Virus record (IMG/VR): IMGVR_UViG_3300044695_000792
Location: 1-32,468 of that record
Reading direction: 5' to 3' (one strand)
Length of the DNA stretch: 32,468 bases
From: a virus
Shown here in pieces: positions 8,411 through 31,357 of the stretch. Numbering within the stretch: the stretch's first letter is position 1; the number at the start of each line of letters is the position of its first letter. Both the position numbers and the translations under genes were made by a program. The notes beneath the pieces were generated by a model. That model was given only the letters and a program-made list of their open reading frames with translations, made no database searches and was not told the DNA's origin.

Positions 8411-9634
8411 ATGATTAAGAATCTTCCTATATATGAGATTTCTATAGATCTCAATAATCCAGAGACTACTGTCTCTATGAATTCCATGGTATTAGATCCA
8501 GCTCATGAGCTAAGCTTCCAGCTGTTTAATAATCAGAAGAGATTTCACTTTAATAAAGTGGAGAATGTAATCACTGGAGTAGCAATATCAGCAGATACTC
8601 CTATCTATAGATATGATGATAGAAGCAGAGAGGAATACTATGTAGTATTCACTAAGCAAGCTATAAAGGATATCATATTTGACTATGCCAGGAGAGGCAA
8701 CTTCAATAATATGAATTTAGATCATTCATCTAAGAAAATACTGGATGATGCCTACATGATCCACAGCTATCAGATAGATGAGGAGAAAGGATTCACAGCT
8801 CCAGAGAGATTTAAGGATGCAAATGATGGAAGCTGGATAGTAAGCTACAAAGTTAGTGATGAGATCTTTGCTAAGGCTGAGGCTGGAGAGTGGACAGGCT
8901 TCTCAGTGGAAGGAGTATTCCAGCTAGAGGAAACAGATATGAGCATAGAGGATAAGATGTGGAGTGCTATATCTTTAGAGCTTAAGAAAGTACAGGACAG
9001 CCTTAAATTCTATAATGATTATCCAGATGCTGTTAGCAATAATGCTAAGAGAGGCATAGAATTAAATGAGAATAACGGGAATAAGTGTGCTACTCAGGTA
9101 GGCAAAGTAAGAGCTCAGCAGTTAGCACAGAAAGAGAATGTATCTCTAGAGACTATTAAAAGAATGTACAGCTATCTTTCAAGAGCTGAGGAGTACTATG
9201 ATGAGAATAATACTACAGCCTGTGGGACTATCTCCTATCTTCTGTGGGGAGGCCTTGCTGGTAAGAGATGGGCAGAGAGTAAACTCAAAGAGCTAGGAGA
9301 ATTAGAGGCTTCCAGTGATAAATTTGCTAAGGTCAGAGTAAGCTTTGACTATGATGATACACTAACTACTCCTAAAGGCCAGCAGATGGCTTCTAGATAC
9401 ATAGCAGCTGGAGATAATGTCTTCATAATTACAGCTAGACAGCAAACAAATGGAGCTCCAGTCTATGAGATGGCTAAGAGATTAGGTATTCCTAGAGAGA
9501 ATGTATACTTCACTGGAGGTAGAGACAAGTGGCAAACAGTAAAACGTCTCAGAATAGATAAGCATATAGACAATAATGCAGAGCAGATAGAGCTTATTAA
9601 AGAGAATACAGAAGCAGAGGCTATAAAATTTTAG
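8411..9634 (+). CDS. Prohead protease fused to a helical domain and a HAD phosphatase (407 aa)
   Basis: Three parts are visible. Residues about 55-170 resemble the XkdF/S78_2 prohead serine protease: a His in NLDHSS (H105), KGFTAPERF, and Ser in the core GFSVEG (S165). Residues about 200-295 (NNGNKCATQVGKVRAQQLA, ETIKRMYSYLSRAEEYY, CGTISYLLWGG) are a helical domain often attached to phage proteases or portals. Residues 308-407 are a HAD hydrolase: motif I D313-Y-D315-D-T317, T341 (IITAR), K373 and D387 (HIDNN), all catalytic positions filled. The protease would mature the capsid and scaffold encoded next. The HAD substrate is unknown. The gene starts 26 bp from the divergent minus-strand gene. 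Confidence 0.8.
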   Translation: MIKNLPIYEISIDLNNPETTVSMNSMVLDPAHELSFQLFNNQKRFHFNKVENVITGVAISADTPIYRYDDRSREEYYVVFTKQAIKDIIFDYARRGNFNNMNLDHSSKKILDDAYMIHSYQIDEEKGFTAPERFKDANDGSWIVSYKVSDEIFAKAEAGEWTGFSVEGVFQLEETDMSIEDKMWSAISLELKKVQDSLKFYNDYPDAVSNNAKRGIELNENNGNKCATQVGKVRAQQLAQKENVSLETIKRMYSYLSRAEEYYDENNTTACGTISYLLWGGLAGKRWAESKLKELGELEASSDKFAKVRVSFDYDDTLTTPKGQQMASRYIAAGDNVFIITARQQTNGAPVYEMAKRLGIPRENVYFTGGRDKWQTVKRLRIDKHIDNNAEQIELIKENTEAEAIKF

Positions 9635-25781: not shown

Positions 25782-26294
25782 ATGTCATTCTGGAATAAAC
25801 AAGCATATGAGATAGCACTAAAGATCAGTGGAGGTCATGAGCTTCATGCTGATCTAGTGTCTCATGTGTACATTCTCCTACAGAAGTATGATCTAACTGA
25901 GGAAGAGCTTCCTAGAACATTCGCAAAATTTGCCTACAATCAATGGAACTGGAGAGAAAGTGACTTCAATAGGACTTTTAAATCTCCTCAGAATGTAGAG
26001 ATCACAGAATACATTCCAGCAAAGGAGGAAGAGGAATCTCCTTCAGAAGCTCAGAAGATATTCAGAGGATACTTAGATCAATCTCCTACAGATGACAATG
26101 AGCTATTTTGTAAAGAGATAGCTAAGATGTATATTTGTGGAATGACTTATAGAGAGATCAGATCAGAGACTGGTATCTCACTGGATACAATTAACAAAGC
26201 ACTAAAGAAATTTAAGCATGATGTACTACTTAATTCCCCTAATAGCTATAGGATTCTCGAGAGCACTGATGACTCTTCCCCTTGCAGATATTAA
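25782..26294 (+). CDS. Sigma-70-like transcription factor (170 aa)
   Basis: The protein has the layout of a small sigma factor: an N-terminal helical domain (HADLVSHVYILLQKYDLTEEELPRTFAKFAYNQWNW), an acidic linker and a C-terminal region 4-like HTH (CGMTYREIRSETGISLDTINKALKKFKHDVL). Such factors or sigma-like regulators in phages often switch on late genes. Placed after replication genes and before the terminase module, it is a good candidate for the late-gene activator. Its last 77 bases overlap a membrane protein gene. Confidence 0.62.
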   Translation: MSFWNKQAYEIALKISGGHELHADLVSHVYILLQKYDLTEEELPRTFAKFAYNQWNWRESDFNRTFKSPQNVEITEYIPAKEEEESPSEAQKIFRGYLDQSPTDDNELFCKEIAKMYICGMTYREIRSETGISLDTINKALKKFKHDVLLNSPNSYRILESTDDSSPCRY

Positions 26295-26433
26295 GCCTCT
26301 GAACTGTCAGAGCTGCCTATCATTCTGGAGCTGTTTAATTATCTGCCTAATAGTAGACTGGCAGCTATTCCCATTGGGATTCCTAGCATATTTAATCTCA
26401 GACTTAATACTAATTTATGAATATAAGCGATAA
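26218..26433 (+). CDS. Small membrane protein with Cys motif (71 aa)
   Basis: Two hydrophobic segments (YYLIPLIAIGFSRALMTL and FWSCLIICLIVDWQLFPLGFLAYLISDLILI) flank a polar turn with KPLNCQSCLSFWSC. The CxxC plus SFW motif is familiar from small DUF1360-like membrane proteins of phages. It overlaps the sigma-like gene by 77 bases. A second ATG lies one codon downstream. Function unknown; may act on the host envelope. Confidence 0.55.
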   Translation: MMYYLIPLIAIGFSRALMTLPLADIKPLNCQSCLSFWSCLIICLIVDWQLFPLGFLAYLISDLILIYEYKR

Positions 26434-26770
26434 TTTAAGAGCTCAGGCAGAGAGATTCCATAGAACTCAGAGCTTTAATCTATCTAATCAAGAGAAGCAA
26501 GATCTGGCTACCTGGTACAGAAGCAAGTTTAATAAATCACTCAATATCAAATGTGGTACTTGCATAAGGAATGGAATGAGAGATCTGGTAGCAGAGCTCA
26601 ATACTTCAGAGCCAGCTATCAAGATTAAGCCTAATATCACATTCATAGGAGTGAAGCAGAAAACTCTGGAAGAGATGTCTTATAGAGAGCTCAAAGATAT
26701 GGCCAAAGCTCAGGGAATCATAGGCAACCTAAAGAGAGAGAAACTAATAGAAGAGCTCACTAATGGATAA
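26417..26770 (+). CDS. Hypothetical protein with SAP-like C-terminus (117 aa)
   Basis: Two parts are visible. Residues 20-60 (LSNQEKQDLATWYRSKFNKSLNIKCGTCIRNGMRDLVAEL) contain a CxxC pair. Residues 80-115 (LEEMSYRELKDMAKAQGIIGNLKREKLIEEL) look like a SAP or Rho-N motif that binds nucleic acid. This kind of fusion is common in Bacteroidota phages. Overlaps its neighbours by 17 and 8 bases. Confidence 0.6.
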   Translation: MNISDNLRAQAERFHRTQSFNLSNQEKQDLATWYRSKFNKSLNIKCGTCIRNGMRDLVAELNTSEPAIKIKPNITFIGVKQKTLEEMSYRELKDMAKAQGIIGNLKREKLIEELTNG

Positions 26771-26909
26771 TACTCAAGTACTAGCATCTAAGGATGGCAT
26801 CATGTATGAGCAAGTGAGACTCTTATTCTATGATGAGCATAATGATATCTTTGTATGCATGAGAGCTGATGGACTAGTGATATGTTATAACTACATAAAA
26901 GATCTATGA
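26763..26909 (+). CDS. Small hypothetical protein (48 aa)
   Basis: ATG 26763 overlaps the previous gene by eight bases and the stop overlaps the next ATG at 26906 (ATGA). The peptide (GIMYEQVRLLFYDEHNDIFVCMRADGLVICYNYIKDL) has strand-like alternation and could be a tiny beta domain. It fills the gap exactly, which supports it. Function unknown. Confidence 0.6.
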   Translation: MDNTQVLASKDGIMYEQVRLLFYDEHNDIFVCMRADGLVICYNYIKDL

Positions 26910-27103
26910 CAAGGATAAACCTAGGGAATTATATGATTAAAGAGGATAAAGACCTGGGAGTATACTATATCTATAAAATTAAATATGTAAGAAAACCGAT
27001 ATGGAAGATATGGAAGAGAAAGAGGAAGATATACTACTTAGCCACCTCAAAAGGCTTCAGGAATCTAGCTCAGGCGATCTACTTCGTAAAGAACGAAATA
27101 TGA
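26906..27103 (+). CDS. Small basic hypothetical protein (65 aa)
   Basis: A very basic protein (KIKYVRKPIWKIWKRKRKIYYLATSKGFRNLAQAIYFV) without a known motif; it might bind nucleic acid. ATGA overlap with the gene before and the micro-peptide after. Confidence 0.5.
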   Translation: MTRINLGNYMIKEDKDLGVYYIYKIKYVRKPIWKIWKRKRKIYYLATSKGFRNLAQAIYFVKNEI

Positions 27104-27177
27104 TGATCTGGATCTGGGCAGCTATTCTAGTGATTAATGTCATATTCTGGATAGGAATGATTAAAATATTCTCATGA
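27100..27177 (+). CDS. Micro membrane peptide (25 aa)
   Basis: ATG 27100 overlaps the previous stop (ATGA) and its own stop overlaps the glycosyltransferase ATG at 27174 (ATGA). The peptide is almost one single hydrophobic helix (MIWIWAAILVINVIFWIGMIKIF). The same frame is open back to an ATG at 27001, giving a 58-residue protein with an acidic N-terminal helix, but that needs a 103-base overlap. It may anchor or accompany the sugar enzymes that follow at the membrane; that is inference. Confidence 0.5.
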   Translation: MMIWIWAAILVINVIFWIGMIKIFS

Positions 27178-27890
27178 AGATAATAGCTCCAATACCAGTT
27201 TTTGGAAGACATGAGCTAGTAAAGCTAACAGCTTCCAGGCTACAGCTTCAAGGGATAACTCCTGTGCTTATAGGCCATGAGCCAGAGACTAAAGAGATAG
27301 CTAAGGACTTGAATATAGAATTCTGCTTAGCATCTAATAATCCTCTAGGTCATAAGTGGAATGTAGGATTCCAGGCTGCTAAGTTCTATGATCCAGATGC
27401 AGTGATCTTTATGGGATCTTCTGACTGGTGCTCACAGGAGTATATTGATATAGTCAAGCAGAATCTAAACTTTTCAATGATAGGAATGCTAGGATGTCAC
27501 TTTGTAGATGTAGCTGATCAGATCAGACTAGTACACTGGGATGGATACAAGGATAAGCTCAGAATGAATGAGCCTATAGGAATAGGAAGAGTACTATCAA
27601 GAGAGCTCATTAAAAAAATGAACTGGACTCCTTTTGAGAATGTACTTAACTCTGGACTGGACTGGTCTATGTATCAGAAGGTGCTGAGACTAAGAGAGAA
27701 GATAGCTGTCATTCCTAATGATCCTATGAATGTGAGGCTGATGAGTATCAGTACTAACAAGTGGATAAACAAACATAAGTTCCTGGATCACTGGAGTGGA
27801 TCTCTAAAGAGCCAGAAGATAGAAGATCTCTCAATACTTAATACTCACTTCTCAGATATACATATACTCCATGAAACGCTTAACAAATAA
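27174..27890 (+). CDS. Glycosyltransferase, GT-A/GT2-like (238 aa)
   Basis: The start reads KIIAPIPVFGRHELVKLTASRLQLQGITPVLIG, the usual first strand and helix of a GT-A fold. Residues 70-90 have PDAVIFMGSSDWCS, where SSDW likely takes the place of the DxD metal motif, and NPLGHKWNVGFQAAK before it is like the nucleotide-sugar pocket of family 2 enzymes. It probably moves a sugar from an NDP-sugar onto a glycan or protein. It is first of three linked sugar/small-molecule genes. Acceptor unknown: host surface polymer, virion protein or DNA are all possible. Confidence 0.7.
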   Translation: MKIIAPIPVFGRHELVKLTASRLQLQGITPVLIGHEPETKEIAKDLNIEFCLASNNPLGHKWNVGFQAAKFYDPDAVIFMGSSDWCSQEYIDIVKQNLNFSMIGMLGCHFVDVADQIRLVHWDGYKDKLRMNEPIGIGRVLSRELIKKMNWTPFENVLNSGLDWSMYQKVLRLREKIAVIPNDPMNVRLMSISTNKWINKHKFLDHWSGSLKSQKIEDLSILNTHFSDIHILHETLNK

Positions 27891-28413
27891 ACCTAATACA
27901 AATACAGCTACATTCTGGAATGACTACTATGCTTCAATAGATAGAGAAGAGGATAGACTTATCATTTATGAGCAACTGGAAGAGATACTCCAGAATATAC
28001 AATTCAAGACAGTACTAGAGATCGGATGTGGGACTGGAATAGGAGCTCAGTATCTGAAGGAATGCTTTCCAGAGATCATATACACTGGATCAGACTTCTC
28101 ACTAATGGCACTAGACAAAGCTGCAAACTATGTAGATCATGTGAAGCTCCTGGATATAAGATATGAAGATCCTTCAGATTATTATGATGTAATTATCATA
28201 GCTGAAACCTTAGAACATCTGGAGAATCCATATGAGATCATAGATAGATGTTTATACTACTGTAATTATCTAGTGATATCACTTCCATTAGATGAGCCTG
28301 AGGAATGTGATCCAGAGCATATCTGGTGCAATATCACTCCAGAGGATTTCACTCAATATGATGTAATATACACTAAGCTTAATACAAGCTATTTTCAAAT
28401 TATACTAAAATGA
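27871..28413 (+). CDS. SAM-dependent methyltransferase, class I (180 aa)
   Basis: Motif I is VLEIGCGTGIGAQYL (residues 48-62), followed by YTGSDFS (acid residue for ribose binding) and DVIIIAETLEHLENP (motif III-like, 106-120), all standard for small class I methyltransferases of the Methyltransf_11/23 type. DNA methylase motifs (NPPY, DPPY) are absent, so the target is more likely a sugar or other small group. It overlaps the glycosyltransferase by 20 bases and the amidotransferase by ATGA, indicating one functional unit. Confidence 0.78.
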   Translation: MKRLTNKPNTNTATFWNDYYASIDREEDRLIIYEQLEEILQNIQFKTVLEIGCGTGIGAQYLKECFPEIIYTGSDFSLMALDKAANYVDHVKLLDIRYEDPSDYYDVIIIAETLEHLENPYEIIDRCLYYCNYLVISLPLDEPEECDPEHIWCNITPEDFTQYDVIYTKLNTSYFQIILK

Positions 28414-29477
28414 ATGAATGTAATAGATGCCTATTCACTAGCGAGATAGCTAAGATAGGAGATACTCAATGTGAATACTGTGATCTGCATGATGAGCTGG
28501 AGAGACAGTCTAATCCACAGGATCTAAACAAAGTACTAAACAAGATCAGAAAAGCTGGAGCTAAACAGAAGTATGACTGCATAATGGGGATATCTGGAGG
28601 AATAGACTCCAGCACGCTTCTCTATGCAGCTGTCACTAAGTGGAATCTAAGGCCTTTAGTGATTCACTTTGATAATAACTGGAATGCTCCAGAAGCTCTG
28701 AGTAACATGACAAACCTAGTGACTAGATTAGGAGTAGACTGTATTGTATACATGGTTAATAAGACAGAATATGATCTGCTTAATGATTCATTCCTGGCAG
28801 CTGGCATTCCAGATGCTGATATCCCTAATGATATAGCCATGACTAAGCTCATGTATGATACAGCTCATAAGTATGGAATCAAATACATTCTGAATGGTCA
28901 TGACTTTAGGACTGAAGGATCTACTCCAAAAGGATGGACCTACATGGATGCTAAATATATCCAGTCAGTATACAAAGCTCACTCTGGCTTAAGACTTAAG
29001 AATTATCCTCTATTCACTTTTAAAGATCAGCTATTCTATGCCTGGAAAGGTATTAAGAATGTCAGACCTTTTCACTATGGACTTAATAGAGAAGTACTGG
29101 ATCAAGAGATGAAGTCATTCATAAACTGGAAAGATTATGGAGGTAAGCACTGTGAGAATGTTTACACTGAATTCGTAGGAAGCTATCTGCTGCCTCAGAA
29201 GTTCAAGATAGATAAGAGAATAGTATACTTATCAGCTCAAGTGAGATCTGGCAAGCTATCAAAACAGGAAGCTAGAGATATATTCAGTATTCCTTCCACA
29301 TTCGATACTGAGAAACTAGGAACAGATAAACATAGAATATTAAAGCTTATAGATTCCAGGATACAGTCTAGAGATAACTTTGAGAAGTACAACTTTAAAA
29401 AGTACAGGATGCTGATCTGGATACTAGCTAAGCTCAAAGTAGTGCCTTATACATTCTATATTAAATACTGTAAGTGA
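28410..29477 (+). CDS. N-acetyl sugar amidotransferase-like PP-loop enzyme (355 aa)
   Basis: Resembles the WbpG/PseA family, which convert a sugar acetamido group to an acetamidino group with ATP and ammonia. A zinc site is built by C4, C7, C21 and C24; the PP-loop is SGGIDSS (62-68). Further motifs: PLVIHFDNNWN, GIKYILNGHD and KDYGGKHCENVYTEFV. Length fits the family (about 340-390). Bacterial versions work with HisH/HisF-like ammonia suppliers, none of which is here, so ammonia must come from the host or free pool. With the GT and methyltransferase it points to synthesis of an unusual decorated sugar. Confidence 0.78.
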   Translation: MNECNRCLFTSEIAKIGDTQCEYCDLHDELERQSNPQDLNKVLNKIRKAGAKQKYDCIMGISGGIDSSTLLYAAVTKWNLRPLVIHFDNNWNAPEALSNMTNLVTRLGVDCIVYMVNKTEYDLLNDSFLAAGIPDADIPNDIAMTKLMYDTAHKYGIKYILNGHDFRTEGSTPKGWTYMDAKYIQSVYKAHSGLRLKNYPLFTFKDQLFYAWKGIKNVRPFHYGLNREVLDQEMKSFINWKDYGGKHCENVYTEFVGSYLLPQKFKIDKRIVYLSAQVRSGKLSKQEARDIFSIPSTFDTEKLGTDKHRILKLIDSRIQSRDNFEKYNFKKYRMLIWILAKLKVVPYTFYIKYCK

Positions 29478-29656
29478 TGCCAATACCTAAGCCAACAGCA
29501 CAAGAGACAGAATCAGAATTCATTCAGAGATGTATGAGTGATGAGAAGATGAAACAAGAGTATGAGATACCACAGCAGAGATATGCTGTATGTGCTTCTT
29601 CTTATACTATTAATAATCAGAACTCTAAGGATTCCAGAACAAAAAAACATAAGTAA
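29477..29656 (+). CDS. Small FxxRCM...RxAVC phage protein (59 aa)
   Basis: Pattern SEFIQRCMSDEKMKQEYEIPQQRYAVCASSY is a short conserved phage module often found near terminase or protease genes; function not established. I chose ATG 29477, which overlaps the prior stop as TGATG; a GTG one codon before is possible. The tail is basic. It lies 10 bases before the small terminase gene. Confidence 0.65.
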   Translation: MPIPKPTAQETESEFIQRCMSDEKMKQEYEIPQQRYAVCASSYTINNQNSKDSRTKKHK

Positions 29657-29666
29657 TAGTATAGCT

Positions 29667-30065
29667 ATGTCATATTCACAGGAAATAGTAGATAAGCTAG
29701 AAGATCTAGCATGGGAATATATACAGGAATGCCTTTGTCATACTAAGGAAGTAGTATCTAATAAAGGGCAGATTGTTTATGTTCAAGATAGGATGATTCC
29801 TACTATTGACTATTTTCTGTCTATATGGATTCCTTTAAAGCATGACATGAAACTTTTAGAGAGAAGAACATGGTATAGATGGCTGAGAGAGGAAGGAGAC
29901 AAAAGTCACACTATAAAAAACATAGATAGTGAATTTATAGGCCTAGGAAAGAACATAGTAGCTAATGAAGGCAAAGGAATCTTCTATGCAAAGAATAAGT
30001 TTGGAATGCATGATAGACAGCATATTGAAACAAAACAAGTAGAGAAATTTGACTTTGATGTATAA
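29667..30065 (+). CDS. Terminase small subunit candidate (132 aa)
   Basis: Lies directly upstream of the large terminase. Start 29667 is chosen since the frame before it is low-quality sequence overlapping the previous gene. The product is helical (QEIVDKLEDLAWEYIQECL, MIPTIDYFLSIWIPLKHDMKLLERRTWYRWL), with HTH-like potential, and ends in GIFYAKNKFGMHDRQHIETKQVEKFDF, typical of small subunits that bind the packaging site and bridge to the large subunit. Sequence identity cannot be tested, but size and place agree. Confidence 0.7.
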   Translation: MSYSQEIVDKLEDLAWEYIQECLCHTKEVVSNKGQIVYVQDRMIPTIDYFLSIWIPLKHDMKLLERRTWYRWLREEGDKSHTIKNIDSEFIGLGKNIVANEGKGIFYAKNKFGMHDRQHIETKQVEKFDFDV

Positions 30066-30071
30066 AGTCTC

Positions 30072-30079
30072 TATATTTG
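30072..30079 (+). promoter_or_regulatory. Late promoter candidate before the large terminase
   Basis: TATATTTG, an exact TAnnTTTG box, with TTTG (30048-30051) 20 bases upstream as a -33 element, so both parts have the expected spacing. It is directed to the large terminase and the whole late operon and gives a leader of about 70 bases that contains a terminator-like hairpin. Confidence 0.7.
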
Positions 30080-30126
30080 TATACTCTTTTTTTTATAAGT
30101 TTAATGGTTAGTTAGGTCAACAGAAT

Positions 30127-30154
30127 AGAGGAGATCTACAGCTCCTCTTTTTTT
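30127..30154 (+). terminator. Terminator/attenuator hairpin just before the large terminase
   Basis: agaggag (30127-30133), eight-base loop, ctcctct (30142-30148), then a run of T to 30154; the terminase ATG begins at 30155. It may stop transcripts from the small terminase gene or act as an attenuator for the promoter at 30072. Confidence 0.75.
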
Positions 30155-31357
30155 ATGAGTACTATAAAAGGATATAAGCCACATGATAATCAGAGATTAA
30201 TCCATGATTCAATTAATCATGGAGAATATAAGTACTATGCTCTCAATATTGGTAGGCAGTTCGGCAAAACTATGCTAGGCATTAATCAGATGCTGTACTG
30301 GGCAATCAATGATAAAGGATGTAATATAGCCTGGATCACTCCAGTATACAAGCAGAGTAAAAAAGTCTTTGATGAGATGGAGAAAGTCACTAGAGGAAGT
30401 GGCCTATTTGAATTCCATAAGTCAGATCTCTGGATCAAGGGCTTTGGATCTACTATCACATTCTTCTCTGGAGAGAAGCCAGATAATATCAGAGGGAATA
30501 CATTTGACTATCTCATAGTGGATGAGATGGCCTTCACCAGATCAGAGCTCTGGGATGAGGTTCTATCTGCTACAGTATTAGTCAAAGGAAAGAAAGTGAT
30601 CTTCATATCTACTCCTAAAGGAAGGAATCACTTCCACAGAATCTGTATGCAGCATAACTATGACAAGAGATATAAGTACTTTCACTTCACCAGCTTTGAG
30701 AATCCTCTGATAGATCATCAAGATCTAGAGGAGAGAAAGAGATCCCTTCCAGATCATATCTTCAGACAGGAGTATCTAGCTGAGTTTATTGATAATGCAT
30801 CTGGCATCTTTAGGAACGTGAGAGACTGCATAGGCAAAGGAGAGAAAACTGCTAAGATGTATGGAGGTCTAGATATAGGTAGAGCTGATGATTACACTGT
30901 GCTCACTATCTTGAATGACAAAGGAGAGCAAGTTGCTGTCAATAGATGGAGACATGAGGAATGGTCCAGGATCATTGATAAGGTAGCTGATGAGATAAGG
31001 AAGTGGAATGCTCTCACATTGGTAGAGGTGAATAATCAAGGAGATGTATTCTATGAGATGCTCCAGCATAAGTGCAGAAATCTAGTAGAGCCATTTGTCA
31101 CCAGCTCCAGTAGTAAGCCTGTGCTGATAGAAGATCTAGCTGTGAGCTTTGAACAGAAGGAGATCAAGGTACTGGATGAGACCTGGCTACTTGATGAGCT
31201 CGAAGCTTTTACTTATATTTATAACGTCAATACTAGATCAGTGAAGTACTCTGCTCCAGATGGGATGCATGATGATGGAGTGATCAGCACAGCTCTAGCA
31301 TGGCACTGTAGGAAGCACTATAGCAGAAGAGGTCAATATAAAATACTAAGAGCATAA
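30155..31357 (+). CDS. terL: Terminase large subunit (400 aa)
   Basis: The packaging motor and nuclease. ATPase: Walker A variant GRQFGKT (33-39), Walker B YLIVDEMAF (about 118-126) and FISTPKGR coupling motif. Nuclease: GLDIGRADDYTVL (about 237), EVNNQGDVFYEML and C-terminal HDDGVISTALAWH (about 372-384), the RNase H-like acidic triad. Length is a little short compared with many (420-600), as is usual for Bacteroidota phages. ATG comes immediately after the T tract of a hairpin, with no Shine-Dalgarno. Confidence 0.93.
   Translation: MSTIKGYKPHDNQRLIHDSINHGEYKYYALNIGRQFGKTMLGINQMLYWAINDKGCNIAWITPVYKQSKKVFDEMEKVTRGSGLFEFHKSDLWIKGFGSTITFFSGEKPDNIRGNTFDYLIVDEMAFTRSELWDEVLSATVLVKGKKVIFISTPKGRNHFHRICMQHNYDKRYKYFHFTSFENPLIDHQDLEERKRSLPDHIFRQEYLAEFIDNASGIFRNVRDCIGKGEKTAKMYGGLDIGRADDYTVLTILNDKGEQVAVNRWRHEEWSRIIDKVADEIRKWNALTLVEVNNQGDVFYEMLQHKCRNLVEPFVTSSSSKPVLIEDLAVSFEQKEIKVLDETWLLDELEAFTYIYNVNTRSVKYSAPDGMHDDGVISTALAWHCRKHYSRRGQYKILRA

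Follow-up and report, generated by a model that had tools for sequence, protein, structure and literature searches.

The segment from position 27174 to 29477 of the IMG/VR virus record IMGVR_UViG_3300044695_000792, whose full 32,468 bases are referred to here as the window, encodes a GT-A glycosyltransferase, a class I methyltransferase, and a WbuX/WbpG-type N-acetyl-sugar amidotransferase. We propose that these genes form a glycan-decorating cassette and that, in this phage lineage, several such cassettes interchange in a fixed slot between a frame of small genes and the terminase genes. We give this reading, which covers the cassette and sugar decoration and excludes the acceptor, a probability of about 0.7. 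The enzyme classes and the decorated sugar named in the initial annotation are supported by the GT-A fold of the first protein, the Methyltransf_23 match of the second, the position of the third in the WbuX family tree, and the presence of other glycosyltransferases at the same place in relatives.

All of the features described between 26107 and 31357 lie on the + strand. To the left of the cassette are two constant genes, one of 117 amino acids (aa) with a weak Rho_N-like C terminus (26417 to 26770; Pfam E 0.026) that is syntenic in relatives and one of 65 aa (26906 to 27103) that is coupled by an ATGA overlap to a hydrophobic, one-helix micropeptide of 25 aa (27100 to 27177; MMIWIWAAILVINVIFWIGMIKIFS). 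Homologs of the micropeptide are found in L002, L003, L074, and L332. We set its start at 27100, although the open reading frame (ORF) list opens the same frame at 27001, because of the ATGA overlap with the upstream gene. The overlaps reported earlier for the genes that follow were all found: ATGA between the micropeptide and the glycosyltransferase (238 aa, 27174 to 27890), 20 bases between the glycosyltransferase and the methyltransferase (180 aa, 27871 to 28413), and ATGA between the methyltransferase and the amidotransferase (355 aa, 28410 to 29477). To the right, a constant gene of 60 aa (29474 to 29656) shares a GTGA overlap with the amidotransferase stop and is followed by a putative small terminase subunit, assigned by position only and with no family match (29667 to 30065), and by the large terminase subunit (30155 to 31357; phrog_2, E 7.5e-45; PF03237), the anchor for our comparisons. 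In rough NG86 estimates against the two nearest relatives, L002 and L003, dN/dS was 0.05 to 0.07 for the glycosyltransferase, 0.15 to 0.16 for the methyltransferase, 0.09 to 0.11 for the amidotransferase, and, more roughly still over 25 codons, 0.28 to 0.36 for the micropeptide. These low values indicate that all four are real genes and that the enzyme genes and, on the rougher estimate, the micropeptide are under constraint.

Comparison with relatives revealed replacement of the cassette between conserved flanks. In L332, whose terminase is 97% identical to that of the window, the whole cassette is replaced by three other proteins, namely a protein of 299 aa that matches nothing in Pfam, a methyltransferase-like protein, and a Glycos_transf_2 protein; the two sequences agree at 87% on the left, as far as base 27177, and at 89% on the right, beginning at base 29476. 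Among relatives with terminases of about 81% identity, some (for example, L340, L343, L345, and L406) encode a protein of 300 to 306 aa together with a Glycos_transf_2-type and a methyltransferase-like protein, the last two in either order, and others (L344 and L401) encode a single slot enzyme with 34 to 35% identity to the window glycosyltransferase. The slot between the frame and the terminase genes is empty in L351 and L352. An independent sample anchored on the terminase comprised 79 loci, 17 of which show both slot edges: 4 are of the window type, 9 are of the second kind (Glycos_transf_2-type plus methyltransferase-like), 2 have a single enzyme, and 2 are empty. The remaining 62 loci (truncated, out of synteny, or only distantly related) did not enter this count. 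The homology break at 27177/29476 and the alternative sets indicate that the cassette is the unit of exchange, that its edges are gene edges, and that the micropeptide lies outside it. On the same joint estimate as above, which takes in sugar decoration and excludes the acceptor, the site is probably a cargo slot for interchangeable glycan-decorating enzyme sets. The natural swap between the window and L332 within constant flanks, together with the empty sites, provides a ready-made comparison for determining the purpose of the cassette.

The gene set was also sought in other phages. The glycosyltransferase and amidotransferase recur as a pair, lying within 1.5 kb of each other at 73 of 73 loci with enough upstream DNA (of 98 loci, 25 were too short), and a terminase lies within 1.2 kb of the amidotransferase at 74 of 76 loci with enough downstream DNA; some contigs are counted twice in both figures. 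The methyltransferase is the middle gene in 4 of 70 distinct cassettes.

The micropeptide had been regarded as a member of the cassette. Its single helix and its coupling ahead of the enzyme genes were found as described, but membership did not hold, because it is retained in L332, where the cassette has been swapped out and where homology ends precisely at its last base, 27177. By this comparison the micropeptide belongs to the constant frame and would be coupled to whichever gene comes next. On the opposite flank, the 60-aa gene carries a PKP...RCM...QRxAVC motif. This small motif recurs, as it also opens a 145-aa ORF in L107. Some relatives have in its place a gene that matches part of the XkdF-like protease protein of the window (8411 to 9634), and the homolog of the 60-aa gene in L401 (6330 to 6515) contains a long run of asparagine codons.

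A divergent phage contig, L107, likely contains a deleted cassette: between positions 2945 and 3944, residues 1 to 39 of the glycosyltransferase and approximately the last 60 of the amidotransferase are retained on either side of an unrelated 134-aa ORF. Two other glycosyltransferase-like ORFs follow. An 81-aa ORF corresponding to the amidotransferase tail in this contig prompted us to consider the tail as a portable module. A scan of complete ORFs, with those cut by a contig end left out, ruled this out, since a complete tail ORF outside the enzyme occurs only in L107 among the matches listed. Because L107 retains the edges of both cassette enzymes, the 81-aa ORF looks like a remnant of the deletion.

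We also considered whether the cassette shares late expression from Bacteroidota-type promoters. The motif TTTG..TAnnTTTG, a consensus of Bacteroidota-type promoters, has 4 matches in the window versus 0.45 expected by chance. One (26107 to 26137) lies upstream of the small-gene frame and cassette and is found at the same place in L002, L003, and L074; a second (30048 to 30079) precedes the large terminase gene, where it is followed by a weak terminator-like hairpin (30127 to 30148). Such hairpins number 3 in the window versus 5.8 expected by chance. Across 54 distinct loci, promoter-like sites were present upstream in 4 and in the terminase gap in 11. The idea of shared late expression was dropped, as the sites around the cassette hold in close relatives only. 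The promoter-like site and hairpin at 30048 to 30148 are possibly an attenuator.

The glycosyltransferase assignment held up in structure prediction. An AlphaFold2 model (alignment of 26 sequences) had a pLDDT of 93.9 and a pTM of 0.90, and Foldseek matched it to the glycosyltransferases 6p61 and 9jma in the PDB (E 8e-9). Structural comparison gave Z scores of 18.6 with the fucosyltransferase WrtF (184 aligned residues, 2.7 Å), 17.2 with 6p61, and about 15.8 with TarP. We therefore confidently predict a GT-A fold for this 238-aa protein. The model has no signal or membrane span. Its invariant motifs in the alignment are GSSDW (residues 81 to 85) and GLDWSM (residues 161 to 166). Most GT-A enzymes carry a DxD-like motif, at the place of which this protein has SSD; the distant slot enzyme in L344 and L401 reads GSDDW where the window enzyme reads GSSDW. 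Its relatives were found in 37 viral contig stretches. In profile searches the window protein had no convincing family match and no Pfam match, including Glycos_transf_2, to which the relative in L014 scored 18.0 bits, under the cut-off. A sequence search of solved structures gave one chance-level match, and a search of 296 Bacteroidota genomes, run with no positive control, found no cellular relatives. Named phages contained no match to either the glycosyltransferase or the amidotransferase.

The gene between these two enzymes is variable. The window methyltransferase matches Methyltransf_23 in Pfam (E 1.7e-13; 51 bits versus a cut-off of 27); its best NCBIfam matches are generic (UbiG and BioC), and it has a weak likeness to TIGR03587 (E 2.3e-4). 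A methyltransferase occupies this position only in the window, L002, L003, L034, L035, and copies of these. From 107 loci we obtained 70 distinct regions running from the glycosyltransferase to the amidotransferase; loci with no near-complete glycosyltransferase or no amidotransferase were dropped. The middle gene encodes a GT-B protein in 54, a methyltransferase in 4, one of which is the window, and glycosyltransferase-like proteins of 303 or 315 aa in 2, and it is missing in 10. The GT-B protein, encoded by middle slots of 519 to 902 bases, is about 246 aa long. Its model is of moderate confidence (pLDDT 73.9) and resembles a GT-B-type glucosyltransferase (Foldseek E 5.5e-5) and a GT4 enzyme (Z 14.1), so that the GT-B fold is predicted less surely than the GT-A fold. 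The 54 include at least one distant variant (L036, 25% identity).

The third enzyme had been annotated as a WbpG/PseA-type amidotransferase. Residues 1 to 313 match the WbuX profile TIGR03573 (E 2e-47), and the protein is nested in the family tree, though its score of 162.3 bits does not reach the cut-off of 203.2; we therefore place it in a divergent clade of the family and do not treat it as a certified member. The 12 phage amidotransferases in a tree of 54 rows form one clade (support 100/100) with a long stem branch of 1.27. This clade is nested among 23 Bacteroidota sequences, most of them HisH/HisF linked, in a larger clade of 35 rows (100/99), and its exact sister is weakly supported (93/64). 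The phage enzymes and the 23 cellular sequences have 34 near-invariant residues in common, including the ATP-binding PP-loop GISGGIDSS (28587 to 28613), on which the weak QueC matches in the window also fall. The C-terminal tail (residues 314 to 355; 29349 to 29474) is conserved in the phage clade and unlike that of cellular relatives. Thus, by phylogeny, the amidotransferase descends from within the N-acetyl-sugar amidotransferase WbuX family. Relatives were found in 167 viral contig stretches, the best 80 of which were kept, and a sequence search of solved structures gave no match.

The reported lack of an ammonia partner was borne out. HisH (PF00117) and HisF (PF00977) were each absent from all 13 virus records searched (the window and 12 relatives, which may be incomplete), while 14 of 14 control genomes were positive. 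Of 198 Bacteroidota genomes searched, 32 had a TIGR03573 match over the cut-off, and we read one such locus per genome with its flanks. Both HisH and HisF were nearby in 28 of these 32 loci; L328 had HisF only, and L302, L312, and L330 had neither. Neither gene was present at the six cellular loci under the cut-off. In L108 the amidotransferase sits among Wzy-, Wzx-, and glycosyltransferase-like genes, as named by eye from translations. The Bacteroidota proteins encoded in L294, L295, and L296 are about 675 aa long, carry a divergent WbuX-like domain in their second half, and have neither HisH nor HisF nearby. An amidotransferase with no glutaminase partner is the most unusual part of the cassette and raises the question of how amidino sugars can be made with no dedicated ammonia source.

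The hosts of this uncultured phage group are probably Bacteroidota. The closest match of the primase-like protein is an uncultured record (43.8%), followed by Flavobacterium phages, and distant matches to the portal protein occur in Nonlabens and Pasteurella phages. The window carries BT4734-like and DUF6712 domains, which are typical of Bacteroidota and their phages. A search of 395 Bacteroidota genomes turned up no near prophage, the terminase matches in them reaching at most 33% identity.

From the enzyme families we infer the following chemistry. The amidotransferase would take a host-supplied amino sugar and, with ATP, activate the amide oxygen of its N-acetyl group; nitrogen from ammonia would then replace this oxygen, giving an acetamidino sugar. 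The ammonia would probably be host derived, either from HisH/HisF-type glutaminases of the host or as free ammonia. The GT-A enzyme would move a sugar onto an acceptor in the host cytoplasm, and the methyltransferase would cap a sugar by O-methylation; in most relatives the GT-B enzyme, at the methyltransferase's place, would instead add another sugar. Because the amidotransferase scores under the NCBIfam cut-off and lacks HisH/HisF, another donor or substrate could apply. Decorations of this kind occur within Bacteroidota: the protein O-glycans of Tannerella forsythia bear methyl groups and an acetamidino pseudaminic acid, and a cluster of glycosyltransferase and methyltransferase genes serves to make them (PMC6120980).

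The likeliest acceptor, at slightly under even odds, would be a host surface polysaccharide precursor; we prefer it because near-identical phages swap sets and because the descent of the amidotransferase is of a host type. No flippase or polyprenyl-sugar enzyme was seen in the window, so a surface-glycan role would need host supply. Nearly as good is an acceptor in the virion, which we consider possible though doubtful. The cassette would then act in the cytoplasm as particles assemble, decorating a capsid or tail protein, and its methyl and amidino groups would serve to tune charge or to protect the particle. Cytosolic enzymes, judged from the GT-A model, and the coupling of the cassette to genes adjoining the terminase are consistent with this, as are the glycosylated capsids reported for mycobacteriophages that have glycosyltransferases of their own (PMC11256854). 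However, close relatives with 97% identical terminases exchange the whole enzyme set, an observation more easily reconciled with a host target that varies than with a virion acceptor that stays constant. Another metabolite is an unlikely acceptor. As a more speculative extension of the host surface reading, the slot might be a general glycan-warfare locus whose enzyme set is matched to the host surface polysaccharide, the window phage retyping its host with amidino and methyl sugars through a phage-adapted WbuX that is freed from a dedicated glutaminase and uses host ammonia or host HisH/HisF.

The long stem branch, the phage-specific tail, the subthreshold score, and the missing glutaminase would also suit a PP-loop enzyme repurposed for a tRNA, nucleotide, or peptide substrate, with neighbors that merely share the slot. 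We find this improbable, as the enzyme is nested in the sugar-amidotransferase clade with its motifs kept and was paired with the GT-A enzyme at every one of the 73 loci. Hypermodification of DNA, in which the glycosyltransferase would glycosylate a modified phage base that the remaining enzymes then decorate as a defense from restriction, is the least likely reading and a very improbable one: phage glycosyltransferases that act on DNA exist and the structural matches include AvpGT, whose structure was solved with Ara-A, but the best such match transfers fucose to an oligosaccharide, and the scans of window proteins (40 by Pfam, 30 by PHROGs) showed no gene of the hydroxymethylpyrimidine, deazaguanine, or Mom type.

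Glycan modification encoded by phages is already known as a kind, and the sugar-decorating cassette described here is a variant of it; a literature search with a limited set of wordings found no description of a widespread uncultured phage group in which a sugar amidotransferase is a fixed gene of single origin. With WbpG/WbuX and HisH2/HisF2 of bacterial O-antigen loci (TIGR03573), the phage enzyme shares descent, the PP-loop, near-full-length alignment, and the company of sugar genes; it differs in its long-branched clade, its own C-terminal tail, the lack of a HisH/HisF gene, and a score under the NCBIfam cut-off. PseA/LegA-type amidotransferases of nonulosonic acid pathways use the same PP-loop amidotransferase chemistry, but no other gene of these pathways was seen in the window. 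As in mycobacteriophage virion glycosylation (PMC11256854), the glycosyltransferases are phage encoded. The window cassette, for which a virion acceptor is one of several possibilities, differs in adding an amidotransferase and a methyltransferase. The gtr cassettes of phage serotype conversion are small, exchangeable, and glycosyltransferase bearing, as is the window set. GtrA flippase and GtrB polyprenyl glucosyltransferase were absent from the 40 window proteins scanned with Pfam. Unlike gtr cassettes, the window slot adjoins the terminase and not an integrase, and it encodes soluble enzymes that include a methyltransferase and an amidotransferase.
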